Shown: one piece after another, positions 1 through 40,176 of the stretch | Layout of the letters: each line of letters opens with the position of its first letter | Position numbering within the stretch: position 1 is the stretch's first letter | Assembly (NCBI RefSeq): GCF_025685565.1 | Contig: NZ_JAGSYE010000003.1 | Span: 1-64,000 of the forward strand | From: Granulicella aggregans | GTDB lineage: Bacteria > Acidobacteriota > Terriglobia > Terriglobales > Acidobacteriaceae | Direction: 5' to 3' | Length of the DNA stretch: 64,000 nt | Position numbers and translations under genes: made by a program | The notes under the pieces: generated by a model | Seen by the model: only the letters and a program-made list of their open reading frames with translations | The model's database searches: none | What the model was told of the DNA's origin: nothing

Positions 1-402
1 GACTCGAAGAACTTTTACTATGAGGCCTACAGCAGCGTCAGCCAGTCGATCTTCGACGGCGGCAAGCTGCGGAATAATCTCCGGTACTACAGAGCGCAAG
101 ACCAGGAATATCTCGACACATATCAGCAGACCATCGCCGGAGCGTTGCGCGATGTCTCGAATGCTTTGATCGCCTACACGAAGACCCGGGAGTATCGGGA
201 AAAGCAGACGGCGCAGGTAGCATCGGCAGCGGAAGCCGTGCGGCTTGCCGACATACTCTACAGAGGCCGCTCGACAAGCTATCTTCAGGTTTTGACCAGC
301 GAAGCCACCCTCTACAGTGCGCAACTTTCCTTAGCTACAGCTCAGCAACAAGAAGCACTCTCGTTGGTGACGCTTTACAACGTCCTCGGGGGAGGATGGT
401 GA
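1..402 (+). CDS. Outer membrane efflux protein, TolC/NodT type (3' part)
   Basis: Only the last 133 codons lie in the window; frame 1 is open from base 1. The text near the start (QSIFDGGKLR) and the stretch ending in a tyrosine-rich YLQVLTSEATLYSAQLSLA segment are typical of the second repeat of TolC-family outer membrane channels, where long helices form the periplasmic tunnel. It ends with NVLGGGW, the usual 'LYxALGGGW' terminus of this family. The stop is at 400-402 and the lipid ABC permease follows about 40 bases later on the same strand, so the channel may be the outer membrane partner of the Mla-like transporter or of a pump encoded upstream. The family is clear; the substrate is unknown. 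Confidence 0.88.
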   Translation, partial: DSKNFYYEAYSSVSQSIFDGGKLRNNLRYYRAQDQEYLDTYQQTIAGALRDVSNALIAYTKTREYREKQTAQVASAAEAVRLADILYRGRSTSYLQVLTSEATLYSAQLSLATAQQQEALSLVTLYNVLGGGW

Positions 403-442
403 TGAGTTTACGTTTACCAGCAAGTCAGAGGATGTCGACGAA

Positions 443-1222
443 GTGGTGCTTATGTCGAGAAGACTGACGTTCTTTGAGTCTGTCGGCGACATGAGCGTAT
501 TTGGCGTCAGGGCTTTGGCTCGCGCCTTTATCCCTCCGTTCGAATTCGCAATTCTGCTTCAAGAAGTGGAAGAGATTGGCGCACGCTCTTTACCCCTTAT
601 CGGGGCTGCGGGTGTTGCGCTCGGCATTGTCCTGACGCTACACACAAGAAGTGCGCTGGTCAGCTTTGGAGCCGAGGCGTGGGGGCCAACCCTGCAGGCT
701 GTGTCTTTCTTCAACGAACTGGGACCGCTGGTGGCCGCCCTCCTGGTCTCTGGCCGAGTTGGCGCGGGTATAGGGGCCGAGTTGGCCAACATGCGAGCCA
801 ATGAACAGATTGACGCAATCGAGGTATTGTCCATCGATTCCTCGAAGATGCTGGTCTCAACACGGATTGTGGCCTGCATTATCAGCTTGCCTCTCTTGAC
901 GATCTTTATGGATTTTGCAAGTCTCCTCGGCGGCTTCATCTCCGAATACTTCGCGTCCCGTATCTCGTTGCAGCTTTACGTCAACCGCGCGTTTGTGAAC
1001 CTGAGTTGGGCCAGCTTTATCGCTCCAACGCTCAAGACATGCGTCTTCGGCTTCATCATCGGCACAGTCTCCTGCTACTTCGGATTCACGATCGACGAGG
1101 GATCGGCAGGCGTTCGTCGCGCGGCGACCAATAGCGTAGTGCTGTCGTCCCTGCTGGTAATCCTGTCGGACGTTTGCCTGGTCAAGATCATTTACTTTTT
1201 CTTCCCCGGGAGCGCTCTATGA
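443..1222 (+). CDS. mlaE: MlaE-family ABC transporter permease
   Basis: Inner membrane permease of a phospholipid/MCE-type ABC transporter. It is about 257 residues with five or six hydrophobic segments, and shows the family pattern in its middle (ELGPLVAALLVSGRVGAGIGAELANMRANEQIDAIEVL), where the ELG and the G-x-GAELA-x-M elements are hallmark residues of MlaE. Two starts are possible: GTG at 443, 11 bases after an AGAGG at 427-431, or ATG at 452, which is further from it. The stop overlaps the ATG of the ATPase gene (ATGA at 1219-1222), so the two are translationally coupled. With the following ATPase and MCE protein it forms an mlaE-mlaF-mlaD operon that moves lipids between inner and outer membrane. 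Confidence 0.93.
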   Translation: MVLMSRRLTFFESVGDMSVFGVRALARAFIPPFEFAILLQEVEEIGARSLPLIGAAGVALGIVLTLHTRSALVSFGAEAWGPTLQAVSFFNELGPLVAALLVSGRVGAGIGAELANMRANEQIDAIEVLSIDSSKMLVSTRIVACIISLPLLTIFMDFASLLGGFISEYFASRISLQLYVNRAFVNLSWASFIAPTLKTCVFGFIIGTVSCYFGFTIDEGSAGVRRAATNSVVLSSLLVILSDVCLVKIIYFFFPGSAL

Positions 1223-1962
1223 GTCCCGATCAGGCGGCTGTCGAGTTCAAGCAAGTCTCCAAGAGCTTTGGAAGCAGCCACGTACTCAGCGATGTGTCCT
1301 TCCAGGTGCTTCAGGGTGAGACGCTCTGCATCCTTGGCCGCAGCGGAACGGGCAAGAGTGTCACTCTCAAGTTGATGATTGGGCTACTAAAGCCCGATGA
1401 AGGCACCGTCCTCATCGGGTCAGAGGACATTTGTGGCATGGATGAAAAAGAACTGTCGCGCATTCGCCGGGAGATCGGCTTTCTCTTTCAGGGCGCAGCT
1501 CTCTTCGATTCATTCACGGTCGGCGACAATTTAGCGCTTCCTGAACAGCGCTTCAATCCTCAGAAATCCGCAGGAGAAGTCAAGACGGATGTGGAAGAGA
1601 TGCTCCGGCAGGTAGGTTTGGAACATGACATAGGAAAGCTTCCCGGCGAGCTTTCGGGGGGCATGAAAAAGCGGGCGGGCCTGGCCAGGGCGCTGGTCAT
1701 GAATCCCAAGCTGCTCCTGATTGACGAGCCGAGCAGCGGGTTGGACCGCATCACGGCGTCCGAGATCGACGACTTGCTTCTGAAGATTAAGACGGAACGG
1801 CACACCACGATGGTCATCGTCACCCACGACATACACGGTGCCAGAAAATTGGCGGATAAGGTCGCGGTACTTGACCAGGGAGCTCTGGTTGGATTCGGAA
1901 CGTTCGATGAACTGAAATCGAGTCAGAACGAAGTGGTTCGGGCACTCACGACGGAGTACTGA
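1219..1962 (+). CDS. mlaF: MlaF-like ABC transporter ATPase
   Basis: Cytoplasmic ATPase of the MCE/Mla lipid transporter, 247 residues. The Walker A motif GRSGTGKS is at residues 40-47, the Q-loop glutamine near 91, the ABC signature LSGGM at 145-149, Walker B LLLIDEP at 165-171 and the switch histidine in VTHD at 203. The signature continues as MKKRAGLARAL, the form typical of MlaF rather than of general importers. The ATG at 1219 overlaps the stop of the permease gene; an in-frame GTG/ATG further upstream would run inside the permease and is less likely. The MCE gene follows after one base. Confidence 0.94.
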   Translation: MSPDQAAVEFKQVSKSFGSSHVLSDVSFQVLQGETLCILGRSGTGKSVTLKLMIGLLKPDEGTVLIGSEDICGMDEKELSRIRREIGFLFQGAALFDSFTVGDNLALPEQRFNPQKSAGEVKTDVEEMLRQVGLEHDIGKLPGELSGGMKKRAGLARALVMNPKLLLIDEPSSGLDRITASEIDDLLLKIKTERHTTMVIVTHDIHGARKLADKVAVLDQGALVGFGTFDELKSSQNEVVRALTTEY

Positions 1963-37351: not shown

Positions 37352-37709
37352 CTCTGTTCCAGCCCGGAGTTTCGGGCCAGAACGCGCTCCTCATGGGCCC
37401 CGATGGCGCGTTCATTACCGGAAGCGACTTTCTGAGGACGGTGGAGTGAAAGCGGCCTATTGGTTAGGAGATCTCGCTCCCAGGTAAGCACGGTCTCGGA
37501 CCGACTGTGCAATGACTGGGCGTGGGGAAGAATCAAAGAGGCGAGACGGAACAAGGGTTCACAGCAAGGGTTAGACTGCTCCGGCTCAACTCGAAGTCCT
37601 TGCACGCCTCGCACCTGTGATTCAGAGTTCGGGGAACTCCTTCGAACGACAGCCATCAGAACTGCCGGGCCATGCTGATCATCCAGATGCAAGCGCAGGA
37701 GATGTGCCT
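37352..37709. other. Non-coding stretch with weak terminator-like hairpin
   Basis: After the isomerase gene a hairpin with arms GTTC..GCCCG and CGGGC..GAAC lies at 37356-37383 (loop GAGTTT, two mismatched bases in the stem), a possible terminator without a T-run. The rhomboid frame stays open from 37617, but its start is placed at 37710. No other gene or RNA is recognised. Confidence 0.5.
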
Positions 37710-39188
37710 ATGCCTGAAGATCCATCGACGCCTGTGGCCGTTCAAGAGCTTCCTACCCTTCAGCAGACCCTGGATGCCGCAACCCCGAAGGTGATGGTCA
37801 CGATCGCGCTGATCGCAATCAATCTGTCCATCTTCGTGGCAATGTTCATCCTCGGTGCCTCGTCTTTCCAACCTGCGCAGATTCTGCCGTGGGGAGCGAA
37901 CTATGGCCCACTTACCACGCACGGTCAGTGGTGGCGGCTACTGACTGCCTGCTTTATTCATCTCAGCGTCATCCACGTTCTGATGAACATGTACATCCTC
38001 TTCCAGGTGGGCATCTTCACCGAAAAGCTCTTTGGCAATCTCCGCTTTCTTGTGCTTTACCTGCTCGCCGGGGTCTTCGGAAACGTAGCGGGTCTTTACC
38101 TTCATCCCAATGTTGTCTCGGCGGGAGCTTCAGGGGCCGTCTTCGGCGTCTACGGAGCCTTGCTGGCGTTCCTGCTGAAGGAACCCGACGTGATCCCGAA
38201 AGCGAATGCACTCGCGATCGCAAAGTCCGCCGGCGTTTTTCTTCTCTTCAACATCATCTATGGCTTGTCCAAATCAGAAGTTGATATGACCGCACATATC
38301 GCTGGATTGGCCGGAGGCTTCGTAGCCGGATGGTTTCTCGCGAGCCCGCTCTTGCCAGCAGCCCAGCACATTCAGCCTCTCCGGGCTCTGACGGTCGCGG
38401 CAGGTGGAACCCTCCTCGCAACCGTTTGCCTCATGGCCGCTCCGAAGACCCAAATGAACATAAGTGAGTTGAACCGCCAGGTCATGACCGGGAAGAGCAT
38501 ACCGGTGGGCAACGGCGGCAAGATCATATACAGCGGCGCAGCCACTGTGGAAGACGCCGAAAACCTCGGCAAATTGCTTCGAGAACAATACTTCTTCTCG
38601 AACCAGGGCAACGTCATCCTCTTCTCGAAAGACTCTACCGGCCCGTCGATCACCTTCCCACTGAGAAGCCAGCGAGCGAAGGGAGTGTCCACAATCGCAG
38701 GGAATGTCCAAGCCCCGGCAAACGCGGTGCCGCTGTGGGACGATCCAAACACGATTCTGAACTTTGAGAGGCTCGGCGTACTAATCGCTCCGTTTGTTGG
38801 CGGCCCACCTTTGGAGGTTCGCTTGACCGACGCCAAAGGCGATCTGAAACATGTACTGCATATCGAGTACCGGTCGCGTGCCGTAAGCGCGCATGATCGG
38901 GTCTGGTACTCCGGCACCGCAAGCGAAGCAGACGCAAAGGTCCTCGGCAAGACGCTTCAATCCCTCGGATACTTTCATGACACCGGCGGCCTTGTCCTGC
39001 TTAAGAAAAATGCCGGAGCGACCGACTTGTCTTTGATCGTGAAGGACGGTGTTTGGAACGATCAGCGCCTTGTCGCAGGCTTTCAGACTCTCGGAGTCAA
39101 GATCGCCGACGCAATGGGAAGCCACCCTCTGGCTCTTCATTTACTTGACGGAACCCATCAGGAAAAGAAACTCCTGACAGTCCCTTAG
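37710..39188 (+). CDS. Rhomboid-family intramembrane serine protease with duplicated C-terminal domain
   Basis: 492 residues from ATG 37710, which has CAGGAGA upstream. Six membrane helices span about 25-220, with the loop WWRLLTACFIHLSVIHVLMNMY, catalytic serine S140 in GASGAVFG and histidine H196 in MTAHIAGLAGG; rhomboids cut membrane proteins inside the bilayer. After a further helix (LRALTVAAGGTLLATVCLMA) comes a soluble region of about 270 residues with two copies of one domain (see findings). The usual bacterial rhomboid ends near 220-280, so the extension is extra. No operon partner is obvious. Confidence 0.9.
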   Translation: MPEDPSTPVAVQELPTLQQTLDAATPKVMVTIALIAINLSIFVAMFILGASSFQPAQILPWGANYGPLTTHGQWWRLLTACFIHLSVIHVLMNMYILFQVGIFTEKLFGNLRFLVLYLLAGVFGNVAGLYLHPNVVSAGASGAVFGVYGALLAFLLKEPDVIPKANALAIAKSAGVFLLFNIIYGLSKSEVDMTAHIAGLAGGFVAGWFLASPLLPAAQHIQPLRALTVAAGGTLLATVCLMAAPKTQMNISELNRQVMTGKSIPVGNGGKIIYSGAATVEDAENLGKLLREQYFFSNQGNVILFSKDSTGPSITFPLRSQRAKGVSTIAGNVQAPANAVPLWDDPNTILNFERLGVLIAPFVGGPPLEVRLTDAKGDLKHVLHIEYRSRAVSAHDRVWYSGTASEADAKVLGKTLQSLGYFHDTGGLVLLKKNAGATDLSLIVKDGVWNDQRLVAGFQTLGVKIADAMGSHPLALHLLDGTHQEKKLLTVP

Positions 39189-39429
39189 CGCCCCGGGCGA
39201 GAGCCCGCTGCTTCCATTGCCGCAAGCGCTGCTCTCTTCTGGACACGCGATACGACATCAGGCATATCTTAGTATCTAGCTGGGTTACGGAGAGACGGTG
39301 CATATCCAGCGAGATATCCGGCTTATCACGCTACGTTGCCAACTTCGAGTCGCCCCGAAAAAGGGCAACTACTCCAAAATCGGAATCATCTACCTTTGTG
39401 GAAGCCCACTTCCGGAGGCCATTACGAGC

Positions 39430-40176
39430 ATGAAAGTTTACCGTCTTCTTTCCAGGGTTATTCTCTTGGCGGGCATCGCAGCGGCGATGGGCGCGATCGG
39501 ATGCAAATCGACTCCCCCTGCTACCCCAGCACCTGTAGCCGGACAGAACGCCCCCGCCGGTCCGGTGAACTCCGACGGAACTCCAACCAACGCTGCACCC
39601 GCGCCCTCCACTGCGCCGACGGTCGCCGCCACGCCCGCACAGCCTGTGGCAGCTCCCTTGCCACCGCCCCAGCCAGTTGCCTTGGTAGCTCCAAGAGGAA
39701 CGCGCGTCGTAGTTCGTACCAATGAGACCCTCAGCGCTGGAAAGAATGAAGTCGGCGATGCCTTCTCCGGCGAACTCGAGGAGCCTATCGTCTCGCACGG
39801 CGAAACCCTGTTCCGCCGCGGCACACGAGTCTCCGGGACTGTCGTGGCGGCCAAAGGCAGAGGCAGATTCAAGGGCGAAGGAGCCATCGGGATCGAGATC
39901 TCATCCATCGGTTCCGTCCATGTTCACACTTCGGAGTACGAGAAAGAGTCCAAAGGCAAAGGCAAGCGTACCGGAGCTCTGATCGGCGGCGGCGCGGGTC
40001 TCGGCGCGATCATAGGCGGCCTCGCGGGCGGCGGAAAGGGCGCAGTCATCGGCGGTCTGGCTGGCGCTGGAGCGGGTACTGCAGGCGCAGCATACACCGG
40101 GAACAAGGATGTTGTGATTCCATCCGAGTCTGTAGTGACCTTCAGCCTTCTGGATCCCTTGACAGTGCAGCCCTAA
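39430..40176 (+). CDS. Lipoprotein with glycine-zipper segment
   Basis: 248 residues from ATG 39430. The signal peptide ends in a lipobox (GAIG-C at about residue 22), so the protein is anchored in a membrane. Then follows a disordered stretch rich in P, A, T and V (about 25-85), a conserved-looking domain (GTRVVVRTNETLSAGKNEVGDAFSGELEEPIV, LFRRGTRVSGTVVAAKGRG), and a glycine-zipper region near 185-225 (ALIGGGAGLGAIIGGLAGGG) of the kind found in outer membrane-associated proteins. The end, VIPSESVVTFSLLDPLTV, is typical of acidobacterial family members. Role unknown. A terminator-like hairpin follows. Confidence 0.8.
   Translation: MKVYRLLSRVILLAGIAAAMGAIGCKSTPPATPAPVAGQNAPAGPVNSDGTPTNAAPAPSTAPTVAATPAQPVAAPLPPPQPVALVAPRGTRVVVRTNETLSAGKNEVGDAFSGELEEPIVSHGETLFRRGTRVSGTVVAAKGRGRFKGEGAIGIEISSIGSVHVHTSEYEKESKGKGKRTGALIGGGAGLGAIIGGLAGGGKGAVIGGLAGAGAGTAGAAYTGNKDVVIPSESVVTFSLLDPLTVQP

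Follow-up and report, generated by a model that had tools for sequence, protein, structure and literature searches.

The window, by which we mean the whole stretch of DNA that was analyzed (64,000 nucleotides from the soil bacterium Granulicella aggregans), carries on its forward strand a gene whose product, judged by its sequence, is a rhomboid intramembrane serine protease with an intact Ser/His dyad. The enzyme class is known; what is new is the C-terminal domain, present in two copies and unnamed in the libraries that we searched. The features of the locus are as follows:

37617-39188, forward strand: open reading frame from GTG, 523 codons (523 aa)
37697-37702, forward strand: AGGAGA, candidate ribosome-binding site read from the sequence, 7 nt 5' of ATG 37710
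37710-39188, forward strand: rhomboid protease gene with tandem C-terminal domains, likely coding sequence from ATG 37710, 492 aa
37797-38354, forward strand: rhomboid core, predicted TM1 to TM6 (Pfam, hydropathy, alignments with GlpG and iRhom)
38130-38132, forward strand: codon of catalytic Ser172 (GASG), aligned with GLSG of Haemophilus GlpG (2nr9)
38295-38297, forward strand: codon of catalytic His227 (TAHIAG), aligned with AHI of Haemophilus GlpG (2nr9)
38385-38441, forward strand: predicted TM7, residues 257-275, hydropathy 1.89 over 19 residues
38517-38864, forward strand: domain copy 1, residues 301-416 (profile matches and AlphaFold2 tandem model)
38895-39182, forward strand: domain copy 2, residues 427-522 (profile matches and AlphaFold2 model, pLDDT 95.5)

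The AGGAGA box favors the 492-aa start over GTG 37617, and translation therefore probably begins at ATG 37710. Residues are numbered here from GTG 37617; subtracting 31 gives the numbering from the ATG. The reading frame, its coordinates, and the repeat units are as described in an earlier note on this DNA, whose residue numbers fit the 492-aa product. Pfam family PF01694 matches residues 103-242 (37923-38342) with an E-value of 7.1e-34 and 117.5 bits, above the cut-off of 22.6, and in the alignment with Haemophilus GlpG the Ser and His are found in GxSG and AHxxG contexts. The window protein scored below the cut-offs of two NCBIfam models, the GlpG equivalog (62.5 bits; cut-off, 250) and rhombosortase (52.8 bits; cut-off, 84). 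It has the rhomboid core and the Ser/His dyad in common with GlpG of E. coli and Haemophilus, although the best GlpG score was only 30.5 bits; GlpG is not known to have TM7 or the C-terminal module of the window protein.

A hydropathy scan predicted seven membrane helices, so that the "six-helix protease" of the earlier note holds for the core and not for the total count. Given the seventh helix, the tandem repeats would sit on the extracytoplasmic side, toward which rhomboid active sites open at the inner membrane; the number of K and R residues per loop weakly agrees with a C-terminus outside, and we consider the tandem domains, which follow predicted TM7, to be probably extracytoplasmic. 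The same scan called five helices in the related rhomboid of Granulicella rosea (G202), whose topology therefore rests on homology.

The two copies are related to each other well beyond chance, as the earlier note had read from conserved positions. Aligned by the Smith-Waterman method they score 113, whereas 2000 shuffles of copy 2 gave a mean of 25.8 (standard deviation, 4.3) and a maximum of 48, none reaching 113. An out-of-sample profile, built from 18 copies that all come from non-rhomboid proteins of other genomes, matched the two copies separately, with 44.6 bits for copy 1 and 78.4 bits for copy 2. Shuffling the C-terminal part of the window protein 1000 times gave no more than 6.0 bits, and 11 other rhomboids, with TPR or unrelated tails, all stayed below the 8-bit print limit. 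When two copies from the phylum of G762 were added to this profile, copy 1 was matched as two pieces (31.4 and 22.1 bits). The domain unit is about 96 residues long, and copy 1 holds an additional stretch of about 21 residues, part of which was modeled with a pLDDT below 50. The single copy of a third rhomboid, G681, was matched weakly by the non-rhomboid profile, in two pieces (22.6 and 17.1 bits), and rose to 80.9 bits only when the profile drew on every copy not in the window protein, its own included.

No match at a meaningful E-value was obtained for the domain in Pfam, NCBIfam, PHROGs, or PDB sequences, in keeping with the earlier note, which knew no name for it. Across 24 copies scanned, the best E-values were 0.019 (Pfam) and 0.041 (PHROGs), the test being a curated cut-off or an E-value below 0.001; in NCBIfam, for which the queries were the window protein and four further carriers, no match on the repeats came near a cut-off. 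TPR families were absent from the Pfam matches of the window protein up to an E-value of 10, and literature search results held no paper on the domain. It sits in proteins that the searched libraries leave blank, and it deserves a name.

AlphaFold2 modeled the tandem with a mean pLDDT of 86.9 and a pTM of 0.73, and copy 2 alone with a pLDDT of 95.5 and a pTM of 0.85. The domain is predicted to be a two-layer alpha/beta structure of six strands and two helices, in the order strand-strand-helix-strand-strand-helix-strand-strand, and this order appears twice in the tandem model, which bears out the duplication by the structure prediction that the earlier note had proposed. The closest solved fold to a single copy is the KH-type N-terminal domain of ribosomal S3 (Z 7.8, 82 residues, rmsd 3.2); the best Z for the tandem is 7.9, and Foldseek returned no PDB match at an E-value of 0.001 or better for either model. 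The tandem model also had a match, at an E-value of 9.3e-4, to one unnamed viral model. Because every Z is below 8 and Foldseek found no such PDB match, only a common two-layer alpha/beta arrangement can be claimed: this is shared with the KH type II and ring-building folds (ribosomal S3, PrgH, and FliF), from which the domain, with its six strands and two helices, differs in the lack of any sequence match. Among 26 aligned copies, a single Pro is the sole residue identical in all; next come one Ala (25/26), a Gly, a Tyr, and another Ala (24/26 each), and a Trp and a Gly (23/26 each), with a Leu also among the most conserved. No acidic, basic, Ser, Cys, or His residue is invariant across the 26 copies, which makes it unlikely that the domain is itself an enzyme and favors a scaffold or binding surface.

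The domain also occurs without a rhomboid, a search that the earlier note had called for. In a survey of 398 genomes of the family Acidobacteriaceae, with the domain required at an E-value of 0.001 or better and at most 12 candidates scored per genome, it was found in at least 17, with one domain gene per genome among the matches listed. The carriers are rhomboids in three genomes, a caspase-like protease in one, and zinc-ribbon or multi-helix membrane proteins in 13. Two of the rhomboids, those of the window genome and G. rosea, have two copies, and that of G681 has one. The caspase-like peptidase (G673) has one copy and a CarboxypepD_reg domain; its gene lies at 1222-2811 of its contig (reverse strand), the protein also has a hydrophobic leader, and its copy of the domain is diverged. 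Two unrelated protease types, rhomboid and caspase-like, have this module in common. The zinc-ribbon protein of G759 (46-1503, reverse strand) has three copies and a long linker rich in Pro, with a linker of TGPQ-type repeats between the first copy and the second, and that of G688, cut by the contig end, has membrane helices and two copies. A multi-helix membrane part precedes one copy in G540 and two copies in G545, G578, G615, G619, G641, G664, G678, G705, G748, and G754.

The window genome was the one match among 149 genomes sampled across its phylum, and 2 of 89 genomes matched in the phylum of G762, which includes a contig titled Planctomycetota: G833, where one copy follows a multi-helix part, and G775, where a single copy accompanies one hydrophobic stretch. 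By eye, the multi-helix part ahead of the domain (G833 1012-1794, reverse strand; L151; L153), with a consensus like GTPLAGxxLMALNYRRLG, looks conserved across the two phyla; L151 and L153 had no Pfam match at a useful E-value. With profile A7, none of 81 genomes of the Plesiocystis phylum and none of 85 of the Chitinophaga phylum matched, which are weak absences, though A7 does match copies elsewhere. Neither the window tandem nor a more typical copy pair had a tblastn match in plasmids and phages, and viral contigs held no domain match. Two candidates were rejected: a match in G393 (profile A1, E-value 5.3e-4, profile positions 10-57) was judged to be chance because it lies within the caspase-like portion of its protein, and one in G595 (E-value 0.089) falls in a glycosidase-like protein. 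With non-rhomboid carriers in two phyla, the domain is a mobile module rather than a tail specific to rhomboids. It appears likewise to be exported on at least some of them: G748 has four predicted helices, with K and R in both loops that would be cytoplasmic, and in G673 a hydrophobic leader precedes the caspase domain, both of which point in this direction. In G759 no helix exceeded the hydropathy threshold, though a hydrophobic stretch is visible by eye.

Within the genus, some rhomboid match was found in every one of the 47 genomes with completeness of 90% or more and contamination of 5% or less, and full-length matches in only 2 of 62, the window genome and G. rosea, whose 487-aa open frame is 43% identical to the window protein over residues 41-512. 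In a tree of 52 of 64 rhomboid cores (12 rows were dropped by name), these two proteins are sisters (99/83), and their subfamily (98/89) further includes G681, ten short rhomboids that lack the domain, and L073, which has another tail. The ten bare rhomboids lack the domain and, from frame length, TM7 as well; the domain is therefore not needed for the basic role. The domain-bearing rhomboids require two changes on this tree, which may be one gain with losses or two gains; the tree of the domain itself is poorly resolved, and its long branches meet. In the 14 rows grouped as TPR the core is followed by TPR-like tails; together with a short rhomboid found genus-wide, these rows form a separate part of the tree (97/92). 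Like the window protein, these TPR-tailed rhomboids (L048, L049, and L058, for example) combine a rhomboid core with an extra C-terminal module, but the module is different and they lie across the 97/92 split. TPR-like tails were also seen in L051, L054, and L062, several of the six having an N-terminal zinc-ribbon-like CxxC, and at least two different C-terminal modules are in use among the rhomboids of the family.

The window gene is flanked by genes for a sugar-isomerase-like protein, an unmatched protein, a GTPase, and a BNR-repeat protein; just 3' of it, the product of 39298-40176 (forward strand) has a lipoprotein-like start, a Gly-rich stretch, and no Pfam match. Across 17 stretches no neighbor genes were shared apart from local synteny, among G678, G705, and G754 and between G578 and G664, and the neighborhood thus gives no clue to a pathway. 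A link to defense, in which caspases serve as effectors, was dropped: the window protein gave no PADLOC match, and in G673 the match was confined to the caspase part.

The layout of the window protein, a six-helix core followed by a seventh helix and an extracytoplasmic C-terminal module, would resemble that of Bacillus subtilis YqgP (GluP), in which a rhomboid core is likewise followed by a repeat-built module predicted outside; the analogy is one of position only (PMC7231995). In YqgP the TPR domain is extracellular and C-terminal, and deleting it increased activity four- to sixfold with two substrates (PMC7231995). The window protein differs in having a tandem alpha/beta domain with no TPR signal and in lacking the large N-terminal cytosolic metal-sensing domain. 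Because of this analogy we read the tandem as a binding or tuning module, and the absence of invariant polar residues and the predicted position after TM7 also fit a binding or regulatory role. The interpretation that we prefer, and to which we give about an even chance, is that of an intact rhomboid with a YqgP-like layout whose tandem is a non-enzymatic binding or regulatory module tuning cleavage. Two copies of a mobile alpha/beta domain would stand where many rhomboids of the same family have TPR repeats, on the outside of the membrane and next to the active site; there they might grip the ectodomain of a substrate or partner in the membrane or, alternatively, keep the protease restrained until bound, and in either case would adjust the choice of proteins cleaved and the rate of cleavage. 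The earlier note had suggested that the domain may present substrates or sense stress, and no finding of the analysis points to stress in particular.

Other readings seem less probable to us. The tail could be a neutral passenger, fused by recombination and of little effect on the protease; its very patchy occurrence (full length in 2 of 62 genus genomes, the window genome included), the same-subfamily relatives that do without it, and the lack of conserved neighbors would all suit this, but two intact, foldable copies have been kept in two lineages at only 43% identity (residues 41-512) and one copy in a third (G681), and we regard a passenger as quite improbable. Somewhat less so, although still doubtful, is an assembly module that packs against itself like the ring-building motifs of secretion systems and flagella and oligomerizes its carriers in the periplasm. 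The motifs of PrgH, YscD, CdsD, and FliF do figure among the Foldseek rows for both the tandem and the single copy, PrgH (5tcp_1) aligning over 69 residues with a Z of 6.7 and an rmsd of 2.4, and tandem copies are common; however, these matches all have Z below 8, none reaches an E-value of 0.001, the kind of fold is very common, ribosomal S3 scores higher, and carriers with a single copy exist (G681, G540, G673, G833, and G775). An envelope sensor, which would bind a cell-wall component or a small ligand and so switch the protease or membrane protein to which it is attached, strikes us as just as doubtful: sensor domains are often attached to partners as varied as the two unrelated protease kinds and the zinc-ribbon and multi-helix membrane proteins seen here, but no polar residue is invariant across the 26 copies to line a ligand pocket, and no ligand-binding fold was prominent in the fold searches.

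The preferred reading, a module that tunes rhomboid cleavage, could extend beyond the rhomboids. Since the domain is also found on unrelated bacterial proteins, it is probably a binding module that can be reused, with a part in deciding what the protease cleaves. A broader version, which we put forward tentatively as having perhaps one chance in a few, is that the extracytoplasmic family of Acidobacteriota and Planctomycetota is a shared regulatory or docking module joined independently to rhomboids, a caspase-like peptidase, and membrane anchors; if so, one kind of envelope signal or partner would control several outputs. Substrate choice and regulation of bacterial rhomboids are largely open questions, for which extramembrane domains are an obvious place to look. 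Being compact, confidently modeled, and present in one to three copies with or without a protease, the domain should be expressible alone, so that its partners can be searched for directly.

Two further observations concern other rhomboids. Contigs from Myxococcales and Deltaproteobacteria (L120 and L126) encode rhomboids with other long C-terminal extensions. The same rhomboid as in G681 is also present on a contig of G767 titled "Verrucomicrobia bacterium Tous-C9LFEB," a title that disagrees with the placement of G681 in the family of the window genome.
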